From Ruminococcaceae bacterium BL-4 (lineage in GTDB: Bacteria; Bacillota; Clostridia; Oscillospirales; Acutalibacteraceae), in assembly GCA_902809935.1 (NCBI GenBank), contig LR778134.1:1054001-1118000 (forward strand): a DNA stretch of 64,000 bases, read 5' to 3'. Each line of letters begins with the position of its first letter. The stretch's first letter is position 1. Both the position numbers and the translations under genes were made by a program. The notes under the pieces were generated by a model, which worked only from the letters and a program-made list of their open reading frames with translations, did not search any database and was not told where the DNA came from. Shown here piece after piece: positions 6,736-33,015 of this stretch.

Positions 6736-7785
6736 GTGAATTTTATGAGGAAAAATGGATTTGGAATTTTATTGTCTTTGGCAATTGCAATCCCGTCTTG
6801 GTTTTTAGGAAAAGTATTTCCAATTATAGGGGGCGCTGTGATTGCCATTTTAGCGGGTATGATTATCACCTTGTTGATTCGGGATAAATCCAGATTCGAT
6901 AGTGGGATTAAATTTATTTCAAAAAAAGTTTTGCAGTGGGCAGTTATATTACTTGGATTTGGACTCAACTTAAACGTAGTGGTAACAACAGGGAAACAAT
7001 CTCTTCCAATTATTTTATGTACGATTTCAACTTCATTAATCATAGCTTATGTAATGCATAAAGTTTTACATACCCCATCAAAAACTTCTACTTTAATTGG
7101 AGTAGGGTCTTCTATTTGCGGAGGCTCTGCGATTGCGGCAACGGCTCCTGTCATTGGTGCAGATGATGACGAAGTTGCGCAGTCTATTTCTGTAATTTTT
7201 TTCTTTAATGTGTTAGCTGCAATCTTTTTCCCGATGCTTGGACAAGTCATGGGATTTAATACATCCAGCGGAGAAGCTTTTGGAATTTTTGCAGGGACGG
7301 CTGTCAATGATACTTCTTCCGTTACGGCTGCTGCATCCACCTGGGATAGCATGTGGGGTCTTGGTTCTGCAACTTTGGATAAAGCGGTTACGGTAAAATT
7401 AACCCGCACTTTGGCGATCATTCCGATCACACTCGTCTTAGCTTTTATAGAATCCCGAAAAGCTAAAATGGCCATTCATGCGGATGAAACTTCGAAGTCT
7501 GTGTTTCATCTAAAAGATATTTTCCCATTTTTTATTTTGTATTTTATTGCAGCTTCTGTGATCACAACGGTTGCTTTAAACTTTGGAATTCCTGCAAGCA
7601 GCTTTATGCCAATGAAAGAATTGAGCAAATTTTTCATTGTTTTGGCAATGGCAGCAATCGGACTCAATTCCAATATTGTTAAGTTGATCAAAACTGGAGG
7701 GAAACCTCTTTTGATGGGACTATGCTGCTGGATTGGAATTACCGGGGTTAGCCTTCTTATGCAGCATGTCATGCGTTTATGGTAA
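6736..7785 (+). CDS. YeiH/YadS-type putative sulfate or anion exporter
   Basis: A 349-residue polytopic membrane protein (about ten hydrophobic segments) of the UPF0324/YeiH family. The conserved GVGSSICGGSAIAATAPVIGADDDEVAQSI region and GTAVNDTSSVTAA are family signatures. Members are annotated as putative sulfate exporters, but the substrate is not well established. The GTG at 6736 has AAGGGAG at 8 nt spacing; an ATG three codons later is the alternative start. Divergent from the LysR gene, which probably controls it. Confidence 0.9.
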   Translation: MNFMRKNGFGILLSLAIAIPSWFLGKVFPIIGGAVIAILAGMIITLLIRDKSRFDSGIKFISKKVLQWAVILLGFGLNLNVVVTTGKQSLPIILCTISTSLIIAYVMHKVLHTPSKTSTLIGVGSSICGGSAIAATAPVIGADDDEVAQSISVIFFFNVLAAIFFPMLGQVMGFNTSSGEAFGIFAGTAVNDTSSVTAAASTWDSMWGLGSATLDKAVTVKLTRTLAIIPITLVLAFIESRKAKMAIHADETSKSVFHLKDIFPFFILYFIAASVITTVALNFGIPASSFMPMKELSKFFIVLAMAAIGLNSNIVKLIKTGGKPLLMGLCCWIGITGVSLLMQHVMRLW

Positions 7786-7828
7786 AAGAAAGTTTCTTAT
7801 ACCTACTATATTGTTCTCATTAATTCAA

Positions 7829-7883
7829 AAAGGAGTGGCACATTCGGCAAAAATGATAGCCGAATGTGCCACTCCTTTTATTA
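7829..7883. terminator. Bidirectional intrinsic terminator
   Basis: AAAAGGAGTGGCACATTCGG and its complement form a ~20-bp stem around a short loop. It lies between the YeiH-type gene and the end of the convergent polyamine operon. Confidence 0.92.
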
Positions 7884-7909: not shown

Positions 7910-9037
7910 TTAGCTAAGACGCATTTTAAAGTCTTCATATCCGAACTTGTGTAAAATTCTGTAGTTTCCATTCTTTTCTTTTACCACAATCGCAGGCAGG
8001 GGCATTCCATTGAAAGTATTGTTTTTAACCATGGAGTAAATGGCCATATCTTCAAAAATCAGTCGGTCACCGGGTTTTAAAGGAGAAGAAAAACTATAAT
8101 CTCCAATGATGTCCCCAGAAAGACAGGTTGGACCACCAAGCCGATAAGTGATGGCTTTTTCACCCGGCAGTCCCGCATTCATCAGCGGAGGCCGATAGGG
8201 CATTTCCAAAACATCCGGCATATGGCATGCGGCAGAAGTATCTAAAATTGCAATCGGCATGCCGTTTTGAAGCGTATCCAGTACAGAAGTTACCAGAAAA
8301 CCGGCATTGAGAGCTACTGCTTCTCCCGGTTCCAAATAAATTTCCAGATGATAAGTGTCCTTTAAATGGTGGATACAACGTTCCAAACGAGGAATATCAT
8401 AGCCGGGACGGGTAATGTGATGGCCTCCGCCTAAATTGAGCCACTTGATCTGCGAAAACCATGGAGAAAACTGCTGTTCCACTGCGGAAACGGTAGCCTC
8501 TAAAGCATCAGAATTCTGTTCACAGAGGGTATGAAAATGGAATCCGGAAACATGCTCTAAAAGGTCCTCCCGAAAATTTTGAAGCGTAATTCCGAGACGG
8601 GAATTTTTGGCGCAGGGATCATAGATTTCATGCCCTTTTTGGGTGGAATACTGAGGATTTAGACGCAGCCCGATCTCTTTTCCGGCAGCAAATGCACGGC
8701 TTTCAAATCGTTCGAGCTGTGAAAACGAGTTAAAAATAATATGGTCGCAGTCATTTAATAATTCTGAGAATTCCTCTTCTCGATAGGCAGGAGAAAAAAC
8801 GTGATTCTCTTTTCCAAACTCTTCTTTTCCGAGGCGCGCTTCATAAAGACCGCTGGAGCTGGTTCCCGATAGGTACTGGCGGCAAAGCGGGTAAAGTGCA
8901 TAGCAGGAAAAGGCTTTTTGTGCCAAAAGAATTTTACAGCCGGTGCGGTCCATTACCCCTTTTAAAATTTTGAGATTCTGCTCCAGAAGTGTTTCGTCAA
9001 TTACATAGCAGGGAGTAGGTAATTCGGAAAAATTCAT
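7910..9037 (-). CDS. nspC: Carboxynorspermidine/carboxyspermidine decarboxylase
   Basis: A PLP enzyme of the alanine-racemase-fold decarboxylase family that removes CO2 from carboxy(nor)spermidine to release the triamine. 375 residues; Lys41 in LLAQKAFSCY is the expected PLP Schiff-base lysine, and LNLGGGHHI and LEPGEAV are phosphate-binding and substrate motifs. It lies 3 bp after the dehydrogenase that makes its substrate and is the last gene of the polyamine operon. Whether the diamine substrate is putrescine, diaminopropane or spermidine cannot be read from sequence. Confidence 0.93.
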   Translation of the reverse strand: MNFSELPTPCYVIDETLLEQNLKILKGVMDRTGCKILLAQKAFSCYALYPLCRQYLSGTSSSGLYEARLGKEEFGKENHVFSPAYREEEFSELLNDCDHIIFNSFSQLERFESRAFAAGKEIGLRLNPQYSTQKGHEIYDPCAKNSRLGITLQNFREDLLEHVSGFHFHTLCEQNSDALEATVSAVEQQFSPWFSQIKWLNLGGGHHITRPGYDIPRLERCIHHLKDTYHLEIYLEPGEAVALNAGFLVTSVLDTLQNGMPIAILDTSAACHMPDVLEMPYRPPLMNAGLPGEKAITYRLGGPTCLSGDIIGDYSFSSPLKPGDRLIFEDMAIYSMVKNNTFNGMPLPAIVVKEKNGNYRILHKFGYEDFKMRLS

Positions 9038-11125: not shown

Positions 11126-11966
11126 CGTGTAAAAGCTCCTCAACATAAGTGGGCAGGGCAAAAGCACCTGCATGTAATTTTGTATTGTAATAGCGAGTAG
11201 AGATTCCAAGAAGATTCCATGCAGCTGCATTCAGATCGTGTACAGGGTGATATTTTTTAGAGGCAAACCCAAACAGCCAGTAGCCGGAAGGATAAGTGGG
11301 AATTTGTGCCTGATAAATTCGGCTGATTGGGAAACTTTCGACAATTCTCTTATGTGCACGCTGCATAGCAGCAGCGTCGCCATCATAAAAAGGGCTTTCA
11401 TGCTGATTGATGAGAATTCCATCTTCATGAAGTGCTTTATAGCAGTTCCCATAAAATTCTCTCGTAAAAAGTCCTTCTCCCGGACCAAAAGGATCAGTGG
11501 AATCTACAATAATCAAATCGTATTGATCATTGCAGGAGCGGATAAATTTAAGCCCATCTTCATAGAAAATATGAACCCGCGGATCAGAAAGACGGCACGA
11601 AGTCTGCGGAAGATATTTTTTGCAGACTTCTACAACCAATTCATCGATTTCTACAAGATCGATTGATTTAATGTTCGGATAACGGGTCAATTCCCGTACA
11701 ACTCCACCGTCACCTCCGCCGATCACCAGAACATTTTTTACATGAGGATGAACGGCCATCGGTACGTGGGTAATCATTTCGTGATAGATAAATTCATCTT
11801 TTTCGGTCAGCATCATATAGCCGTCCAGCGTTAAAAAGCGGCCGAATTCTTTAGAATCAAACACATCGATCCTCTGAAAATCGCTTTGTCCACTAAAAAG
11901 CTGACGATCTACCTTGATCGAGAAATCAACAAATGGGGTATGCGCTTCAGTAAACCAAAGTTCCAT
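11115..11966 (-). CDS. speE: Spermidine synthase (putrescine aminopropyltransferase)
   Basis: Transfers the aminopropyl group of decarboxylated SAM to putrescine. 283 residues; the nucleotide-binding GGGDGGVVRE (83-92), the acidic VEIDELVV strand end, and the catalytic Asp155 in VDSTDPFGPGEG are intact, as is the YHEM segment near residue 61. AAAGGAGA precedes the ATG. It lies between the arginine decarboxylase gene and speB, as in Bacillus-type speE-speB arrangements. Confidence 0.96.
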   Translation of the reverse strand: MELWFTEAHTPFVDFSIKVDRQLFSGQSDFQRIDVFDSKEFGRFLTLDGYMMLTEKDEFIYHEMITHVPMAVHPHVKNVLVIGGGDGGVVRELTRYPNIKSIDLVEIDELVVEVCKKYLPQTSCRLSDPRVHIFYEDGLKFIRSCNDQYDLIIVDSTDPFGPGEGLFTREFYGNCYKALHEDGILINQHESPFYDGDAAAMQRAHKRIVESFPISRIYQAQIPTYPSGYWLFGFASKKYHPVHDLNAAAWNLLGISTRYYNTKLHAGAFALPTYVEELLHDVE

Positions 11967-14344: not shown

Positions 14345-14625
14345 AGCTGCTTTTTTAGAAAGAATGGAACCTTCAGAGTCTATATAGCAAATAGTTACTT
14401 TTACTACTCTTATTGATCGTTTCACAAGTCTTGATGTGTCGCTCACACATTTGGTTTTAAGGAACCAACTTATAAAATTTGCGCTCTTAACGCAATCAAT
14501 AAGGCAACGAAAGTTGCCAATCGGCAATTTGACCCGGCTGTCCGTATGCCTGCCTTTTCCGATGGAAAAGTGGTCAAAAACATTTGCGGGGAAAGACTCC
14601 GTGTAGAAATTCCACACACTTTCCA
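14345..14625 (-). ncRNA. Hairpin-rich leader or small RNA upstream of speD, family uncertain
   Basis: This stretch without a convincing protein gene starts directly after a perfect promoter. On the minus strand I see several local pairings: GATGGAAAGTG with CACTTTTCCATC (long range), GTGT/ACAC around GGAATTTCT, the tight hairpin GGCAAC-TTTC-GTTGCC, TTGGTT/AACCAA, and ATGTGT/ACACAT. An in-frame reading of 98 codons is low-complexity in codon use and resembles no protein I know. The first ~205 nt have the size of clostridial raiA-type RNAs and a GGACAGCCGGGTC stretch that reminds me of them, but this is recall only. The 3' boundary is not defined. Confidence 0.5.
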
Positions 14626-26106: not shown

Positions 26107-26892
26107 TCAGCATAGCGCTTGGTAAACAATCCATGAAATTTTGCCGATTGCTTCTCTGCCGTCTTTATTGGTAGGCATTTCATTTGTCAACACAACTAAG
26201 ATGTAAGGATGTTTGGGGAGAAGAAAGATTCCGCCGTCGTTTTCCAAACAATCAAGATCTCCACATTTATGAGCGATTTCCAATTCTTCCGGAAGATAAA
26301 GCTGTAGCCGATTAGACTGCTGTTGCTGTTTTAAAATGTCCAGCATCATTTTAGAAGATCCTTTGTCGATGCAGGTACCTTCATAGATGCTTTTCAAAAT
26401 ATTCCGGATATCTTCGGCACAGATATAATTGTCATGACCAGCTTCTTTGGCTTTGTTGTCCATCATTTTACGCCCTAAGTGTGCTTGTTTGAGATGCATG
26501 GTTTGTGCCATTTGATTGATAGATTCCATGCCAAGAAAATCAATTAAAATATTGGTCGCTTCATTGTCGCTGATAATAATCATTAATGTTAGGAGTTCTT
26601 TAAGGGTAAGGGAGTGTCCAGGTTCTAATTCTTTTAAAATGCCGTCACCACCTGTTTTCATTTGAGCGGTTATTGTAATCTTATTTTCCAGAGAAGTTTC
26701 CCCGATATGAACACGGCGCATGAGTTCTGCCATGATTACTAGCTTGATTGTGCTTGCAGAGAGCATCTTTTTTTCTCCATCGATTGAAAAACCGGATTTT
26801 TTCTTCAAATCGTAGAAGGAAACTGCAATGCTTCCATTTTGTGTTTTGATAAAGGCTTCAATTTCCTTTTTGAGTAGTTCCTGCGCAGTCAT
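26107..26892 (-). CDS. Class A beta-lactamase-related serine hydrolase without signal peptide
   Basis: I start it at the ATG at 26892 (MTAQELLKKE, AAAGGAG upstream), giving 261 residues. The serine-hydrolase triad motifs are present: S47-T-I-K50 (SxxK), S108-D-N110 (SDN) and K209-C-G211 (in place of KTG). A Glu166-type ExxLN omega-loop motif is not seen; the region reads LGRKMMDNKAKEAGHDN, as in a set of clostridial serine hydrolases. No signal peptide or membrane helix is visible, which is odd for a cell-wall-active enzyme. Without the deacylating Glu, efficient beta-lactamase activity is doubtful; a peptidase or esterase role is possible. Confidence 0.85.
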   Translation of the reverse strand: MTAQELLKKEIEAFIKTQNGSIAVSFYDLKKKSGFSIDGEKKMLSASTIKLVIMAELMRRVHIGETSLENKITITAQMKTGGDGILKELEPGHSLTLKELLTLMIIISDNEATNILIDFLGMESINQMAQTMHLKQAHLGRKMMDNKAKEAGHDNYICAEDIRNILKSIYEGTCIDKGSSKMMLDILKQQQQSNRLQLYLPEELEIAHKCGDLDCLENDGGIFLLPKHPYILVVLTNEMPTNKDGREAIGKISWIVYQALC

Positions 26893-26940
26893 CTGAGTGT
26901 TTTCTCCTTTCTGTGTGATTTTTATAAAGCTTTTGTCAGA

Positions 26941-26988
26941 CAAAGAAACACCCTTTACTGAGTGAACCGTAAAGGGCGTTTCTTATTA
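26941..26988 (-). terminator. Hairpin terminator after the DUF819 gene
   Basis: AAGAAACGCCCTTTAC and GTAAAGGGTGTTTCTT pair on the minus strand. It lies between the DUF819 stop and the serine hydrolase start. Confidence 0.75.
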
Positions 26989-27017: not shown

Positions 27018-28196
27018 TTAAGCCATAAGATGCAAAATTGCGCCGGCACCCAAGCCAAAGAAATTGCCGACTGCAGCGCCGAGAACACCCATCAAAACAC
27101 CGATGCCTGCATAGGACGGATTATATGTAGAGGCGACAATCGGAGCGGAAGCGGCGCCGCCGATGTTCGCAAGTGAGGCTGTAGAAACCATGCACAGGTC
27201 CCAATGAAATGCTTTGGAAAGCAGGAACATGAGAACCACATGAATAACCAAAATGAAAATGCCGTAGACGACCCACATTGGAGCAGACAGCAGATCCACA
27301 ACTGAAGCAGTAGAAGCTAGAAGGGAAACAACTGCATACAGATAAACATTCGAGAGCTCTTCCACAGCTGGCAGCTTACCAAGCGGGGTGAGGGCACAAA
27401 TAAGGCCCAAAATTGTAACGAATACAGTTGTTAAGGTACCTTTGTCGAACATACCTAACCCTACGGATTTCAGAGCACCGTTAAGTGATTTTCCAACTAC
27501 TTGAGAAAGTGCCGAGACCATTAGAGATAAGCCGATTAGAAAAATCCAATCATTGGCAGTAGCACGTTTTTGGCCTTTTGCAACTTCAGCATTGGCGGCA
27601 TCAGCAACAGCCTGAAGTTTGGAAGTATCTGCTTTAACTGTATTGTTCCACTTATTGGCATAACGAACAGCCAGTAAAAGAAGTGCAATCCATACGGAAT
27701 AGCAAACAGTATCCAGAGCCAAAGCACAGCTATAAGCACCGGCATCTACCGGCAGAGCAGCCTGCATAGCTGCCATGTTTGCAGAGCCGCCGACCCAGGA
27801 AGCATATAGTGATGCAACAGCACCCCACGTGTTGCTGCCAAGTGTGCCTTTAAAGATTGGGTAGCCAACAACAAAGCCGACGAACAAAGTTATGGAGCAG
27901 CCAAAGAATATGGCCACCATGCGACCACCGAGTTTTGCAAGCTTACGAAAGTCGCAGCGCAGCAGCATGACGAAGATCATAGCATACAGCAGATTGTTTT
28001 TTAAGGCCGAATAGGTTGCGGTACAAGCATCAGATTTATAAAGCCCCATGGTGCAGAATACCATGTTGAGTACGTAAATCCAAACGAGCGGTGGTACGTA
28101 ATTAAAGACTTTCCATTTGCCGTATTTTTCCGCAGCCAATAAAGCACCAGCAACAAACATTAAAAATGCTATGTAAGTAAAGCCGTCTGTAATCAT
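27018..28196 (-). CDS. DUF819 family membrane protein (putative transporter)
   Basis: 392 residues, mostly hydrophobic, with about ten to twelve predicted membrane spans. The DUF819 signatures are clear: SLYASWVGGSANMAA and ASLANIGGAASAPIVA, pseudo-repeated motifs in the two halves, as in ion-coupled carriers. The family's substrate is unproven. It lies downstream of a dipeptide epimerase and a dipeptidase on the same strand, so I infer transport of dipeptides, muropeptide fragments or the amino acids derived from them. GGGGAG precedes the ATG. Confidence 0.9.
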   Translation of the reverse strand: MITDGFTYIAFLMFVAGALLAAEKYGKWKVFNYVPPLVWIYVLNMVFCTMGLYKSDACTATYSALKNNLLYAMIFVMLLRCDFRKLAKLGGRMVAIFFGCSITLFVGFVVGYPIFKGTLGSNTWGAVASLYASWVGGSANMAAMQAALPVDAGAYSCALALDTVCYSVWIALLLLAVRYANKWNNTVKADTSKLQAVADAANAEVAKGQKRATANDWIFLIGLSLMVSALSQVVGKSLNGALKSVGLGMFDKGTLTTVFVTILGLICALTPLGKLPAVEELSNVYLYAVVSLLASTASVVDLLSAPMWVVYGIFILVIHVVLMFLLSKAFHWDLCMVSTASLANIGGAASAPIVASTYNPSYAGIGVLMGVLGAAVGNFFGLGAGAILHLMA

Positions 28197-28379: not shown

Positions 28380-29471
28380 TTAATTAAGATAGCGCAGACC
28401 GTGAATTCCTTTGATCCCAAGTCCCGGATCATTAGAGACAGTGATTTCCTTTTCATCAAATACAGCGCCGCCAAGGATAGGATCTTCGCTGCAGAGAACA
28501 GGGCCGTCGAGATCAATCTTAGTGATAATTTTCTTTGCGCAGGCAAGATGAATCGCAGCGTTTACACTGATTTTTGCTTCCAGCATGCAGCCGATCATGC
28601 ACTCTACGCCATACACTTCGGCCGCCGAAGCAATTTTTAGTGCATTATAGATGCCGCCGCATTTCATCAGTTTAATATTGACAAGGTCTGCAGCTCCCAT
28701 CTGCATGATCTTAAGCGCATCTGCGGGAGAAAAGACGCTTTCATCTGCCAAAACCGGCACATACGAACGGTCTGTTACATATTTAAGGCCTTCAAAGTCG
28801 AGTGCCTTTACCGGCTGTTCTACAAATTCAATATCCAGCCCTTTATCCTGCATTTCATTTAAAATGCGTACAGCCTGCTTCGGGCTCCATGCCTGATTTG
28901 CATCGATACGAATGCAGGTTTTATTTCCAACCGCTTTTCGTACAGCCATTAGACGCTCCACATCGAGAGAAGGATTGGAGCCTACTTTGATTTTTAAGGT
29001 ATCGTAACCGCGCTCAATGGCATTTATCGCATCTCTTGCCATTTCTTCCGGATCGTTTACGCTGATGGTAATATCGGTTACGAGCTTGTTGCGGCTGCCG
29101 CCCAGAAGCTTATAAACGGGAATCTTGTAAAGTTGCCCATAAAGGTCCCACAGTGCCATGTCGGCGGCGGCTTTTGCACTGGTGTTTTTTACAATGCAGC
29201 CGTTTAGGGCCTTTAAGTTATCTTCTAGGTTGTCAATATCACGGCCCATCAGAGTTTTAATGATGTGGTCTTTCATAGCTCCAATAATTGCTCCGGTCGT
29301 GTCGCCCGTGATGACGCCTGTCGGTGGTGCTTCTCCATATCCTACAGCACCGGTATCGGTGTGAATTTCTATAATGACATCTTCTACGCTGTTGACAGAG
29401 CGCAGTGCGGTTTTAAATGGAACCCGCAGGGGAACAGAAAGAATGCCTAATTTTACTTCGGTAATTTTCAT
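28380..29471 (-). CDS. Dipeptide epimerase (L-Ala-D/L-Glu type), enolase superfamily
   Basis: 363 residues of the muconate-lactonizing subgroup. Catalytic residues are visible: Lys160 and Lys162 (TLKIKVG), metal ligands Asp190 (RIDANQAW), Glu218 (FVEQP) and Asp243 (LADESVF), and Lys267 (NIKLMKCGG). Both epimerisation lysines are kept, so it should racemise the alpha carbon of the second residue of dipeptides such as L-Ala-D-Glu from peptidoglycan turnover. It lies 15 bp after the dipeptidase gene, which could hydrolyse the L,L product. Exact dipeptide specificity cannot be read here. Confidence 0.93.
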   Translation of the reverse strand: MKITEVKLGILSVPLRVPFKTALRSVNSVEDVIIEIHTDTGAVGYGEAPPTGVITGDTTGAIIGAMKDHIIKTLMGRDIDNLEDNLKALNGCIVKNTSAKAAADMALWDLYGQLYKIPVYKLLGGSRNKLVTDITISVNDPEEMARDAINAIERGYDTLKIKVGSNPSLDVERLMAVRKAVGNKTCIRIDANQAWSPKQAVRILNEMQDKGLDIEFVEQPVKALDFEGLKYVTDRSYVPVLADESVFSPADALKIMQMGAADLVNIKLMKCGGIYNALKIASAAEVYGVECMIGCMLEAKISVNAAIHLACAKKIITKIDLDGPVLCSEDPILGGAVFDEKEITVSNDPGLGIKGIHGLRYLN

Positions 29472-29486
29472 ATAAATTCTCCTTCC

Positions 29487-30857
29487 TTATTTGGCTAATT
29501 CATACATCGCTGCGGCGATGATTTTACAGTTTTGAACGAGGCGACTGATTTCCATAAATTCATCTGGCTTATGTTCCCGCACTTCGTCTCCCGGGAAGAT
29601 CGGACCAAAGGCGAGTGTGTTCGGAATTGTCTTTGCATAGGTACCGCCGCCGATACATTTTGGTTTTGCATCCTGCCCGGTTTGCTGCCGATAGACTTTC
29701 AGAAGTTTCTGAACCAGTTCTGAGTCCGGTGCCATGTAAAGACTCTTTTTATGGACAAGAGAAGTGCGCTCAAAACCTGCTTCAGCGAAAGTCTTTTCTA
29801 CAATTGGACCGCAGTCGTCAAAATTCTTGGAGACCGGATAACGATAGTTGATTTTTACATAAATTTTATGCTCGTCTCCCGAAACAATTCCTAAATTAAA
29901 GGTGAGCGGACCGGAATCCTGATCTTCCATTGCAATTTTGAGGGATTTTCCATCGCATTCCATGCCGATCTTTTTAGACAGAAACTGAATTGCTTGTGCG
30001 GCATCCCCAGTAATAGGAAGATGGCTTAACGCAAGCATTAGTCGGCCAATCGCGTTTTCTCCTTCCCATGGAGTGCCGCCGTGGGCACCAACTCCGGCAG
30101 CTTCTATTTTGAATCCGGTATTAGTGCGGGAAACAGTCACTTTTTCTTCTTTTAAAGCCAATGCTTTTTGGGTAAGTATAGGAGAACATGTAAATTCAGC
30201 CACTGCATGATTAGGAACAATATTGTGTGCGGTGCCGCCCTGCAGATGGAGAAGTTTGATATTACCGCTTTGCGTGAGCTTTTTTGTATATTCTTCGGTA
30301 ATTAATCCCTTTTCGCCGTTAATTACAGGATATTCACCGTCAGGAGTAAATCCCATTACCGGGGCTTCTCCGCCGTTTTTCATGTAAAATTTCATATCGG
30401 CACTGCCGGTTTCTTCGTTTACACCAAATAAAATTCGGATGCGGTGCTTGAGGGGAAGACCGGATTCTTTGATTGCTTTGAGTGCATAGAGTGCTGCTAT
30501 CGTGGGGCCTTTATCGTCCATAGAACCTCTGCCGTAAATCTTTCCGTCTGTTACCCGGCCTTCATAAGGGGGAATGCTCCAACCTTCTCCTTCTGGGACT
30601 ACATCGAGATGCCCTAGAACAGCTACCATCTTTGGGCCGTTTCCGTATTCACACCAACCAACGCGATTCTCCCAGTTTTGTACCGAAAAGCCCATGTCCT
30701 TTGCAAGATTTAGTACGTACTGTAGACATTCCTGTACTTTTTTCCCATATGGATAACCACTTTTATCATCTTCGTAAACGCTGCGGATCTGAATACATTT
30801 TTGCAGATCTTTGGTGAGAGCATCTTTTTGAGAGTCAATCCAATCGTTTATATTCAT
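29487..30857 (-). CDS. pepV: M20-family dinuclear zinc dipeptidase, PepV/Sapep type
   Basis: 456 residues. Zinc-site segments: AVLGHLDVVPEGEGW, GRGSMDDKGPTIAALYA, and the catalytic pair Glu-Glu in GVNEETGSADM; the lid domain lies between residues ~190 and ~330. PepV enzymes release amino acids from Xaa-Yaa dipeptides in the cytoplasm. An AGGAGG site precedes the ATG. The gene is preceded by an attenuator-like RNA (30884-30978) whose architecture recurs before the alanine symporter gene, and it is followed by the epimerase. Confidence 0.93.
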   Translation of the reverse strand: MNINDWIDSQKDALTKDLQKCIQIRSVYEDDKSGYPYGKKVQECLQYVLNLAKDMGFSVQNWENRVGWCEYGNGPKMVAVLGHLDVVPEGEGWSIPPYEGRVTDGKIYGRGSMDDKGPTIAALYALKAIKESGLPLKHRIRILFGVNEETGSADMKFYMKNGGEAPVMGFTPDGEYPVINGEKGLITEEYTKKLTQSGNIKLLHLQGGTAHNIVPNHAVAEFTCSPILTQKALALKEEKVTVSRTNTGFKIEAAGVGAHGGTPWEGENAIGRLMLALSHLPITGDAAQAIQFLSKKIGMECDGKSLKIAMEDQDSGPLTFNLGIVSGDEHKIYVKINYRYPVSKNFDDCGPIVEKTFAEAGFERTSLVHKKSLYMAPDSELVQKLLKVYRQQTGQDAKPKCIGGGTYAKTIPNTLAFGPIFPGDEVREHKPDEFMEISRLVQNCKIIAAAMYELAK

Positions 30858-30883
30858 GATAATTTCCTCCTAAAAATAAAAAT

Positions 30884-30930
30884 GAAAACCAGCAAGACAG
30901 AGCAAAAGAGTTCTGTCTTTGCTGGTTTTC
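30884..30930 (-). terminator. Intrinsic terminator inside the pepV leader
   Basis: GAAAACCAGCAAAGACAGA and TCTGTCTTGCTGGTTTTC pair with one bulge, followed by an ATTTTTATTTTTA tract, all upstream of the pepV ribosome site. Its first strand is also the 3' strand of the candidate aptamer stem. Confidence 0.85.
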
Positions 30931-30978
30931 AAAAAGTTTCTAATATGTGTGCGAAGCATATCCGCAAAATGAAGCAGC
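30921..30978 (-). promoter_or_regulatory. Candidate riboswitch aptamer A (pepV leader)
   Basis: A 58-nt RNA opens with GCTGCTTCATTT and closes with TGAAAACCAGC. The ends pair as GCUG/CAGC plus UUCA/UGAA and enclose a hairpin (AUAUG/CAUAU). The closing strand is reused by the terminator at 30884-30930, so the two folds exclude one another. The same design lies at 32909-32967. A possible promoter (TTGAAA 31011-31006, 17 nt, TTTGAT 30988-30983) would start transcription at the aptamer's 5' end. Confidence 0.65.
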
Positions 30979-31019
30979 AAAAATCAAATTTTTTAAATTT
31001 AATTTTTTCAATGATGTAT

Positions 31020-31340
31020 TTAGAGTTTTGCTTTTGCAGCTAAATATTTTTTACTGGCATCTTTCATCGAGGCCACTATGGCTTTTTCGGAGGAACCATA
31101 ATATCGCCTGTTTAGTTCTTTTTCGAGAACAGGCAAGTCGGCGGTAATCGATTTGCCAATAAAAATTTTTTGAATAAAACGTTCTGTTAAATCCAGAGAA
31201 TGTGTACAGTTCATATCAATAATCTTATTAGTTAGAGGGTCAATCTCAAACACCATGTAAAAAGAACCATATATTTTGGTAATGGCATTTTCTACATTGG
31301 TTCTAGCTTCTCCTACAATAAAAAGAGACTGCTTTTCCAT
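31020..31340 (-). CDS. DUF3870 domain protein, function unknown
   Basis: 106 residues, cytosolic. The stretch CTHSLDLTERFIQKIFIGKS and the RRYYGSSEKAI segment match DUF3870, a small domain I know only from clostridial genomes near amino-acid or peptide genes. It lies upstream of pepV with its own near-consensus promoter and an AGGAGG site. A conserved Cys (MNCTHSL) and Arg-Tyr-Tyr-Gly may be functional. I do not assign a role beyond the shared locus. Confidence 0.85.
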   Translation of the reverse strand: MEKQSLFIVGEARTNVENAITKIYGSFYMVFEIDPLTNKIIDMNCTHSLDLTERFIQKIFIGKSITADLPVLEKELNRRYYGSSEKAIVASMKDASKKYLAAKAKL

Positions 31341-31366
31341 AGCCTTTTGCTGACCTCCTTTTTTAA

Positions 31367-31395
31367 ATTATATCTAAAATAGATTATAAAGTCAA
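31367..31395 (-). promoter_or_regulatory. Promoter of the DUF3870 gene
   Basis: TTGACT (31395-31390), 17 nt and a perfect TATAAT (31372-31367) on the minus strand, leaving only a short untranslated leader. Confidence 0.8.
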
Positions 31396-31420
31396 CTTCA
31401 TATTGTATGATTTGTGCACT

Positions 31421-32839
31421 CTATCCATTACATATTACGGTTTCATTCTCTGATTCTGATTTTTCTAAAGAAATTTCCGTATGAGGCGTTTTTTGATGAA
31501 AAAAGGTATGCGTTTCATCAATTACAACATTTCTTAGCCCCAAGAGGCCTATTAAATTTGGAAAAGCCATCAAAGCGTTTGTAATATCGGCTAAAAGCCA
31601 GATGGGTTCCAAAGAAAGAAAAGGAGCCAGTGTAATTGCAATCAGATAAGCTGTTTTAAAAGGACGGATACATTTAACGCTGTTTGTTAGATAAACCATA
31701 CAACGTTCTCCATAATAAGACCAGCCGATAATTGTAGTAAAGGAGAAGAAGATAATCCCGATTGTGATCAGATAAGTGCCGATTCCAGCAGGAAGGCTGC
31801 TGTTATAGGCTGCGTTGGCAAGTGTGCTTCCACTTAAATCCGTGCGATTAAGCATTCCGCTTGTTAAAATTACAATGCCTGTCATTGTACAGGTAATAAT
31901 GGTCGTAAAAAATACACTGGTCATGGCAATCAGTCCTTGGCGTACACAGGAATTACTTTTGGCCGCTGCAATTACGATAGGAGAAGAACCAAGGCCGGCT
32001 TCATTGGTATAGACGCCGCGTGCGACACCAGTACGCATTGAAGTCATAACTGAGATAATGCCGGTACCTGCCGCACCGCCGAGCATAGCAGTCGGGTGGA
32101 ACGCACTATAAAAAATATTGGAAAAAGTTTGCGGAATCATTTCTCGATTCAATATGATTATAATCAGAGATCCGAAAATATAGAACCCAGCCATAAACGG
32201 CACTACAAATTCTGCTACTTTTGAAATAGAACCAATACCGCCTAAAATAACGGCAGCAACTGCTATGGTGATAATAAGACCGCTGATCCAGACTGGAGTT
32301 CCGAATGAATCATGCACCGATTCCGTGATGGCGTTAACCTGCGGAAAGGTGCCGCAACCCAATAAAGCGGTGATTGATCCAAATAATGCAAACGTTTTTG
32401 CAAGCCAAATCCATTTTTGCCCAAGCCCGTTTTGAATGTAATACATTGGTCCGCCGGCGATATGCCCATTTTCATCAAGAGAACGATATTTGACTGCAAG
32501 CAATCCCTCTGCATATTTAGTGGCCATTCCAACAAAAGCAGAAACCCACATCCAGAACATGGCACCCGGGCCTCCGAGGCGCAGAGCTGTTGCTACCCCC
32601 ACAATACTGCCGGTGCCGATGGTGGCTGCCAGTGTGGTGCAGAGAGAGCCAAAAGCAGAAACGTCTCCTTCCCCTTGTTCTTTTTCAAAGATTGCTTTCA
32701 TCGCACGCGGCAGCTTTATAATTTGCAGAAGATGTAATCGTATTGTAAAATACAACCCGGTTCCGATTAGCAAAATCAGGGTAGGCGGTCCCCAAACAAC
32801 GGATTGAATTTGTGTTAGAATGTTTGTGACAGCTTCCAT
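31421..32839 (-). CDS. Sodium:alanine (AGCS) symporter family protein
   Basis: 472 residues from the second of two close ATGs (32845 and 32839); the AGAGAG ribosome site is better spaced for 32839. About eleven membrane spans. AGCS signatures: GSLCTTLAATIGTGSIVGVATA, GGPGAMFWMWVSAFVGMATKYAEGLLAVKYR, and TNEAGLGSSPIVIAAAK. Members take up alanine or glycine (sometimes glutamine) with Na+. An attenuator-like RNA shared with pepV precedes it, suggesting that uptake and dipeptide cleavage answer to one signal. Confidence 0.93.
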   Translation of the reverse strand: MEAVTNILTQIQSVVWGPPTLILLIGTGLYFTIRLHLLQIIKLPRAMKAIFEKEQGEGDVSAFGSLCTTLAATIGTGSIVGVATALRLGGPGAMFWMWVSAFVGMATKYAEGLLAVKYRSLDENGHIAGGPMYYIQNGLGQKWIWLAKTFALFGSITALLGCGTFPQVNAITESVHDSFGTPVWISGLIITIAVAAVILGGIGSISKVAEFVVPFMAGFYIFGSLIIIILNREMIPQTFSNIFYSAFHPTAMLGGAAGTGIISVMTSMRTGVARGVYTNEAGLGSSPIVIAAAKSNSCVRQGLIAMTSVFFTTIITCTMTGIVILTSGMLNRTDLSGSTLANAAYNSSLPAGIGTYLITIGIIFFSFTTIIGWSYYGERCMVYLTNSVKCIRPFKTAYLIAITLAPFLSLEPIWLLADITNALMAFPNLIGLLGLRNVVIDETHTFFHQKTPHTEISLEKSESENETVICNG

Positions 32840-32869
32840 ATGCATTTCTCTCTTTTCTGAAATACAAAT

Positions 32870-32918
32870 AAAAAACCAGCAAAGAAAAAGCCTTTGTGCT
32901 TTTTCTTTGCTGGTTTTC
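32870..32918 (-). terminator. Intrinsic terminator inside the symporter leader
   Basis: AAAACCAGCAAAGAAAAAGC and GCTTTTTCTTTGCTGGTTTT form a ~20-bp stem with a short loop, then a T-rich tract, before the symporter ribosome site. Confidence 0.9.
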
Positions 32919-32967
32919 ATTTTTGAAACATAAGAGTAACCTTATGGCGTTTATTAAATGAAGCAGC
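32909..32967 (-). promoter_or_regulatory. Candidate riboswitch aptamer B (symporter leader)
   Basis: A 59-nt RNA with the same ends as aptamer A: GCTGCTTCATTT at the 5' end and TGAAAACCAGC at the 3' end, here pairing UUCAUUU/AAAUGAA plus GCUG/CAGC. The internal hairpin is CAUAAG/CUUAUG, different in sequence from aptamer A but paired at the same place. The 3' strand is shared with the terminator at 32870-32918. Confidence 0.7.
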
Positions 32968-32983
32968 CGATTGCTAAGATGGC

Positions 32984-33015
32984 TTTATTATTGTTCTGTA
33001 ATGTCTTTTTGTCAA
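32984..33015 (-). promoter_or_regulatory. Promoter of the alanine symporter transcript
   Basis: On the minus strand TTGACA (33015-33010 region), 17 nt, AATAAT; transcription would begin about 10-20 nt before aptamer B. The rest of the gap to 33221 is AT-rich and holds the pyrC promoter region, with nothing else I can name. Confidence 0.75.

Follow-up and report, generated by a model that had tools for sequence, protein, structure and literature searches.

In bgl-type operons the gene of the antiterminator adjoins its attenuators and lies between its targets. In the part of PMC7430163 consulted, LicT is described as contacting two bulges of its antiterminator and HutP as binding NAG triplets, and in the part of PMC9788692 consulted, the genes named for the RNA motif Gd4v are those of an N-acetyltransferase, a pyridoxal phosphate enzyme and COG2423. 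Here we describe an attenuator element in Ruminococcaceae bacterium BL-4, within 64,000 nucleotides of contig LR778134.1 (assembly GCA_902809935.1, positions 1,054,001 to 1,118,000; hereafter the window, to whose first letter all coordinates refer). Two copies precede the genes of an AGCS-family alanine symporter and a PepV-type dipeptidase, and between them lies a gene for a DUF3870 protein. Together with their relatives these elements appear to be versions of one RNA element, with stems P1 and P2 on either side of an internal loop (short on its 5' side, 5 nt on its 3' side) and an overlapping terminator; no description of such a family was found in the literature searched. Judging from sequence, we put the probability at roughly 0.54 that the elements are antiterminators resembling the ribonucleic antiterminator (RAT) of BglG, SacY and LicT, with DUF3870 as their likely binder.

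The elements of the window and the signals around them are as follows.

32987-33015, minus strand: sigma-70-like promoter of the AGCS leader, TTGACA-17-AATAAT (11 of 12 consensus bases)
32909-32967, minus strand: attenuator element 1 (predicted antiterminator), AGCS leader; P1 GCUG/CAGC, CUU facing AAAAC, P2 CAUUU/AAAUG
32866-32917, minus strand: intrinsic terminator 1; 20-pair stem at 32917-32872, then a U-rich tail
30921-30978, minus strand: attenuator element 2 (predicted antiterminator), PepV leader; P1 GCUG/CAGC, CUU facing AAAAC
30883-30930, minus strand: intrinsic terminator 2, ends taken from sequence; its first arm overlaps the CCAGC strand

A preliminary description of this DNA had placed two copies on the minus strand at 30978-30921 and 32967-32909, with an identical 12-nt 5' strand and an identical 16-nt 3' strand, and this is exact to the base. 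The motif pattern matched only these two sites in the 2.34-Mb genome, and the reversed pattern used as a control matched none. Both leaders fold as strong terminators (z = -6.5 and -6.0, the latter for the PepV leader), with none of 200 shuffles equally stable, and the first arm of terminator 1 includes the CCAGC strand of element 1. The earlier proposal that the element and the overlapping terminator are mutually exclusive folds was borne out by the predicted folds of the window leaders and of all 20 elements listed, and the logic of exclusive pairing supports the further proposal that the closed stem leaves the gene ON. Since only 19 nt separate promoter and element in the AGCS leader, neither a larger aptamer nor a leader peptide fits there; the element of a distant homologue, L084, likewise begins near its promoter (L and G numbers denote loci and genomes). 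Leader-peptide attenuation, in which GCUGCU would be read as Ala-Ala, was rejected because no start codon was seen before this strand and because the element stands near the promoter in these two leaders.

The 20 elements fall into types A, B and C, with A2 and A3 representing the same leader from two species. Pairing in P1 is complete (80 of 80 cells), which none of 2000 strand permutations reached, and each of its four positions has changed pairs, GUUG/CAAC and ACUG/CAGU being examples. P2 without bulges pairs in 99 of 120 cells (permuted mean 73; reached by 0 of 2000) and its first pair forms in 20/20, these counts holding in the register that a script imposed by giving the internal loop 5 nt on its 3' side; in type A two U opposite A-A could pair too, giving a 1-by-3 loop. 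Since some elements were found with the structure, these pairing statistics lean towards it. The predicted energy of the terminator (-16.7 to -39.7 kcal/mol) was lower than that of the antiterminator (-5.9 to -23.8 kcal/mol) in all 20 cases. The elements are 35-70 nt long, 10 of the 12 of type A measuring 56-59 nt, and conserved bases are limited to the bottom of one stem, around the small asymmetric internal loop: P1 and P2 covary across distant homologues, while the apical part is not conserved and is free in sequence and length. The inner hairpin that had been presented as covarying between the window copies (AUAUG/CAUAU versus CAUAAG/CUUAUG) was dropped as a conserved feature; it is weaker than claimed, is not conserved across the class, and in the pepV leader the predicted fold prefers another hairpin.

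Within the genus (11 genomes with the window's own, some incomplete, all searched with the model) both copies are also present in three of the other ten genomes, four of 11 in total. Compared with three sister species, the 64-nt element was identical at 64/64 positions in five of six comparisons and at 61/64 in the sixth, an AGCS copy; in the same comparisons the 60 nt upstream matched at 51-58 of 60-61 aligned columns, and the terminator loop region was changed in five, its identity ranging from 32/40 to 40/40. Two sister species have an altered base in the 3' arm of the terminator and keep the element's own strand. Among 60 relatives, the motif and DUF3870 were found in the same four.

Covarying homologues exist elsewhere, as had been anticipated, and the copies of type A precede alanine dehydrogenase genes (ald; three), PepV, DUF819 (two), a family 5 solute-binding protein and a Fusobacterium epimerase operon. 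Pfam supports the ald genes of L078 and L166, both DUF819 genes, the solute-binding protein and the Fusobacterium epimerase; the ald of L079 and the PepV of L084 were identified by tblastn matches. Fifty-four loci of PepV relatives in named genomes yielded three diverged copies, two of them (L078, L079) ahead of alanine dehydrogenase and one (L084) ahead of PepV. A second model, run on the whole genomes of 13 such loci, added L165, before a secreted-protein gene without family assignment, and L166, before a second alanine dehydrogenase; the gene after L165 was rejected as an NlpC/P60 hydrolase, as Pfam finds no such domain in the stretch available. Over 82 loci this model returned the known elements and one weak match, L102 (19.9 bits, E 1.4). 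A search over 14 DUF3870 genes and two earlier loci (261 kb) gave seven matches, of which three with overlapping terminators were accepted: L314 (E 0.003) and L320 (E 0.01), both between DUF3870 and DUF819, and L311 (E 1), before the family 5 solute-binding protein. Matches beside DUF3870 in L312 and L316 (two) were read and rejected, and the seventh match lies at L309:14147. In Fusobacterium vincentii the element lies directly before epimerase-DUF819-hydrolase-DUF3870 genes (E 0.029); three of the four matches in that search lay inside annotated genes and were dropped. The Fusobacterium vincentii record L321 (NZ_CP084075.1), of 2.1 Mb and with one annotated feature, is filed as a plasmid, and its size suggests a chromosome. 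A stem-plus-terminator scan for type A found six matches in 364 kb of DUF3870 loci versus none in 703 kb (76 control loci) and none in 10 resamplings, three of the six (L078, L079 and L084) having shaped the pattern.

Types B and C were spotted by eye and their patterns written afterwards. Type B (GCUG-CGU...AAAUU-CGGC and GUCG-CAR...RAGUU-CGGC) has six copies, all in DUF3870 loci (L307, L308, L309, L313 and two in L311). Five of the six match the strict pattern, which found nothing in 2.13 Mb of other loci, a control set whose loci partly overlap one another and include the window; the L313 copy was caught by the loose pattern alone, which also matches L137 once. Type C (UGCC-AG...NAAAC-GGYA) has a copy in L318, before an aspartate-alanine-exchanger-type permease (PF06826), and one in L319, before genes for DUF3870, acetyl-CoA hydrolase/transferase and methylmalonyl-CoA mutase. 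None of the other matches to the type-C pattern (L101, L152 = L169 and a second site in L313) forms P2.

Other leaders were seen around DUF3870 genes. In Cetobacterium (L322 at ~7740-7850, minus strand, and ~8290-8370, plus strand; also L323) the leaders before murI and lysA flank DUF3870 and share ACACUUAUUUAU...GUAAAURAGGUCUAAAAUU together with terminators, possibly a fourth element type; Rfam gave no match in L322. L310:11106-11140 and L317 ~11300-11420 (both minus strand) have in common a conserved leader with a terminator, not of types A-C, before a gene read as acyl-CoA hydrolase/transferase-like upstream of DUF3870. At L043:5888-5931 (minus strand) a terminator lies 3' of DUF3870, and the strands before it could form a similar stem, GUCG...AAAGC-CGAC, which we did not count. 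DUF3870 contigs also hold Rfam matches to TwoAYGGAY RNA and T-box leaders (L307:1712-1868, L307:82-354, L308:4871-5127 and L308:11472-11677).

Wider scans contributed matches that we rejected. The motif patterns were run on the 60 relatives, 391 class genomes and 394 order genomes; outside the genus they matched in nine class-sample and 25 order-sample genomes, and none of the stored loci passed the stem-plus-terminator script. Two pattern-match loci, both in G731, have a CTTGG-TTT string downstream. Across 295 order genomes, searched with the model under strict filters, weak matches appeared in G569 and G637 and were rejected because no terminator overlaps them; six weak model matches within the genus were read and rejected. 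In the family of G892 (215 genomes) four matches outside G892 failed the stem-plus-terminator script. Among at least 120 viral-contig loci only L219 cleared the lowest bar; its terminator was weak (score 9) and the match was taken as chance. An L294/L308 stretch with an 11-nt gap passed the same bar and was not counted.

The preliminary description had not recognised the motif as one of the glycine, glutamine, SAM, T-box, fluoride or guanidine classes, and in line with this no Rfam family reached its gathering cut-off over any element tested (the window; L078, L079, L084; L307-L309, L311, L313, L314, L318, L319; L320, L321, L165, L166). A relaxed search (E up to 10) placed nothing over the window elements but matches that fell far short of cut-off. 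Together with gene context, the Rfam cut-offs led us to set aside the T-box and guanidine classes.

The presence of the element follows that of DUF3870. Each genome in which an element was found also encodes DUF3870. Among 13 genomes with PepV homologues, the element occurred in 3/3 with DUF3870 in the fetched locus and in 0/10 without it, absence in these ten being judged on the fetched stretch and not on the whole genome; L078, L079, L084 and the window's genus have both, and the fetched stretches of L077, L080, L081 and L128 neither. DUF3870 was found in 3 of 245 order genomes and, by Pfam search, in 13 of 209 class genomes, the window's own in both counts, and in ten of these 13 the fetched region has an element of one of the three types. 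Searches in other families that started from DUF3870 recovered type A and two variants of one architecture, and overall, with the window's genus counted once, an element of one of the three types is present in 14 of 26 DUF3870 loci. Where the neighbours are murein-peptide-like, a grouping made post hoc, the element is present in 12 of 14 loci, the two exceptions being Cetobacterium loci. Element and DUF3870 lie between 2 nt and 5.8 kb apart (15 pairs measured). When nine proteins served as tblastn queries, the only one present in all element-bearing loci was DUF3870, apart from the 3-kb stretches L165 and L166, where it is encoded elsewhere in the genome; this result is weak in that many loci were fetched via DUF3870 and just nine proteins were compared.

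The genes of the window locus, read on the minus strand, are arranged as attenuator-AGCS-DUF3870-attenuator-PepV-epimerase-DUF819-hydrolase.

31421-32839, minus strand: AGCS-family sodium:alanine symporter (PF01235, E 1.5e-130; TIGR00835 above cut-off)
31367-31395, minus strand: sigma-70-like promoter before DUF3870, TTGACT-17-TATAAT (11 of 12 consensus bases)
31020-31340, minus strand: DUF3870 protein, proposed trans-acting antiterminator (PF12986, E 9.6e-32; co-occurrence with the RNA element)
29487-30857, minus strand: PepV-type dipeptidase (NF005591 above cut-off)
28380-29471, minus strand: enolase-superfamily dipeptide epimerase, L-Ala-D/L-Glu type (PF13378/PF02746; best NCBIfam model NF041118, below its cut-off)
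27018-28196, minus strand: DUF819 membrane protein (PF05684, E 2.4e-131)
26107-26943, minus strand: class A beta-lactamase-like serine hydrolase (PF13354)

Relatives of the hydrolase (31-37% identity, tblastn) stand beside DUF3870 in four more loci, L308, L309, L311 and L313. Beyond the genus, the closest PepV homologues among 100 family genomes are just 41% identical, whereas relatives at 54-62% identity are present in other named genomes, so the gene cluster may have been acquired horizontally. Elsewhere in the window, positions 14521-14576 (minus strand) match the Streptococcus small RNA SpF59 (ldcC RNA) at 47.1 bits against a cut-off of 37.2, here in a clostridial genome.

The sole Pfam match of the window's DUF3870 protein is PF12986, with no CAT or PRD domain, and by sequence nothing significant was found in PDB. 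In the part of PMC4387736 (2015) consulted, PF12986 is assigned to a beta-rich Bacteroides domain; a DUF3870 profile searched against PDB sequences up to E 10 did not find the structure of that domain, and DUF3870 or PF12986 was named in a single paper of the literature searched. The structure predicted for DUF3870 has moderate confidence (pLDDT 82.9, from four sequences) and bears a weak likeness to IscU (Foldseek best E 0.014; VIA-align Z 9.2, root-mean-square deviation 2.6, 95 aligned).

We propose that by default the nascent RNA would take the terminator fold, the more stable by predicted energy, and transcription would stop. If P1, internal loop and P2 are held closed, the CCAGC strand would be kept from the terminator and the gene transcribed, as exclusive pairing implies. 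DUF3870 would stabilise the stem, in the fashion of LicT and RAT, by binding at its asymmetric loop (CUU facing AAANC), and from the genes served its signal might be, for example, L-alanine or a cell-wall dipeptide. Encoded between the two attenuators and with a promoter-like sequence of its own, the DUF3870 of the window would switch on AGCS and PepV-epimerase-DUF819-hydrolase together. Whether Clostridia and Fusobacteria have in DUF3870 (PF12986) a new family of RNA-binding transcription antiterminators, acting on versions of one element and in the window coupling alanine import to murein-peptide breakdown, we judge an even question. If so, an uncharacterised family would gain a function and the few proteins that control intrinsic termination via an RNA stem would gain a regulator family, and genes responsive to alanine or cell-wall peptides would be predicted in some gut clostridia and fusobacteria.

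The main rival, which we consider rather unlikely, is an ON riboswitch: P1 would close when the internal loop by itself takes up L-alanine, D-alanine or a murein dipeptide, and DUF3870 would be no more than an enzyme or accessory protein of the pathway. The genes served (three alanine dehydrogenases, the alanine symporter, dipeptidases and the Ala-Glu epimerase) speak for it, as do the uniform length of most type-A elements and the closeness of element to promoter in L084 and the AGCS leader, which suggests a self-contained device. The permease after the L318 copy, together with two RNA types in G166, a genome with one DUF3870, adds weight to a riboswitch and takes some from a protein-bound element. 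Set against it are the apex, which holds no conserved aptamer, the existence of 35-nt elements, the L319 context, whose genes make alanine a less likely signal, and similar alanine and peptide clusters in which DUF3870 and element are both missing. An alanine riboswitch was demoted because the element tracks DUF3870; with conserved bases just at the stem bottom and a free apex besides, a protein-bound antiterminator of RAT type fits at least as well as an aptamer. From the riboswitch reading of the preliminary description, the exclusive folds, the covarying homologues and the genes of alanine and cell-wall-peptide metabolism, which had suggested an amino acid or small peptide ligand, hold up, with a ligand-binding riboswitch as a candidate reading. 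To our knowledge no alanine or murein-dipeptide riboswitch is known so far, and this would be the first if the RNA alone binds the ligand. In the literature searched there was no paper on an 'alanine riboswitch' and nothing on a riboswitch together with a dipeptide epimerase; among three RNA-discovery papers searched by term, the main texts of PMC8632094 and PMC11109978 mention none of epimerase, dipeptid-, DUF819 and Fusobacterium, and PMC6429828 none of epimerase, dipeptid- and Fusobacterium.

Several observations weigh against DUF3870 as the binder. Twelve of the 26 DUF3870 loci lack types A-C (L042, L043, L310, L312, L315-L317, L322-L326), L312 and L315 holding second DUF3870 genes of genomes G112 and G211 in other neighbourhoods. 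G166 has one DUF3870 gene and yet one type-A and two type-B elements (L311), which disfavours a strict pairing of DUF3870 subfamily with RNA type. Co-occurrence is partly built in, since many elements were sought beside DUF3870 and types B and C by eye, and the two could simply be travelling together in one pathway. Among the matches listed for the predicted fold none is an RNA-binding antiterminator, the nearest being the weak IscU-like one, and DUF3870 proteins are not markedly or consistently basic (isoelectric points 5.0-9.0). The RAT-like architecture and the lack of an obvious RNA-binding fold in the predicted structure would also suit another protein as binder, with DUF3870 supplying the signal or merely co-inherited; this we hold improbable, DUF3870 being the one tblastn query found in all element loci bar L165 and L166, itself a weak point. 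Long identical strands shared by the window copies could suggest ordinary terminators made alike by recent local duplication, with no switch. This account, which the preliminary description had named as a possible refutation, is contradicted by distant homologues, found in other families and in Fusobacteriota, that carry compensatory changes, and by the two sister species in which the terminator arm changed and the element strand was kept, and we give it hardly any credence.

Among known systems, the T-box resembles the element in its amino-acid genes and its choice between terminator and antiterminator; unlike it, the window has no T-box match, and the T-boxes of L307 and L308 lie away from the elements. 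Guanidine-IV and Gd4v are likewise structured leaders overlapping a terminator, whose ligand is thought to favour ON; the Gd4v genes differ from those here, as far as the consulted part of the source goes, and Gd4v is set apart by this gene description, not by sequence comparison. HutP and GlpP, small metabolite-gated proteins that prevent termination (consulted part of PMC7430163), are like the role proposed for DUF3870, which differs from them in matching PF12986 only in Pfam. From BglG, SacY and LicT the locus differs in that DUF3870 has neither the CAT RNA-binding domain nor PRDs and in the sequence of the stem; the match of the Rfam model bglG-cis-reg in the window lies on the opposite strand and reaches 18.6 bits, its cut-off being 80. 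With these systems it shares a predicted short imperfect stem lying over the first arm of a terminator, which in them gives ON when stabilised by the protein. A RAT-like stem overlapping a terminator and a candidate regulator gene are thus present in the same locus, and the layout of the window resembles that generally known for bgl-type operons.

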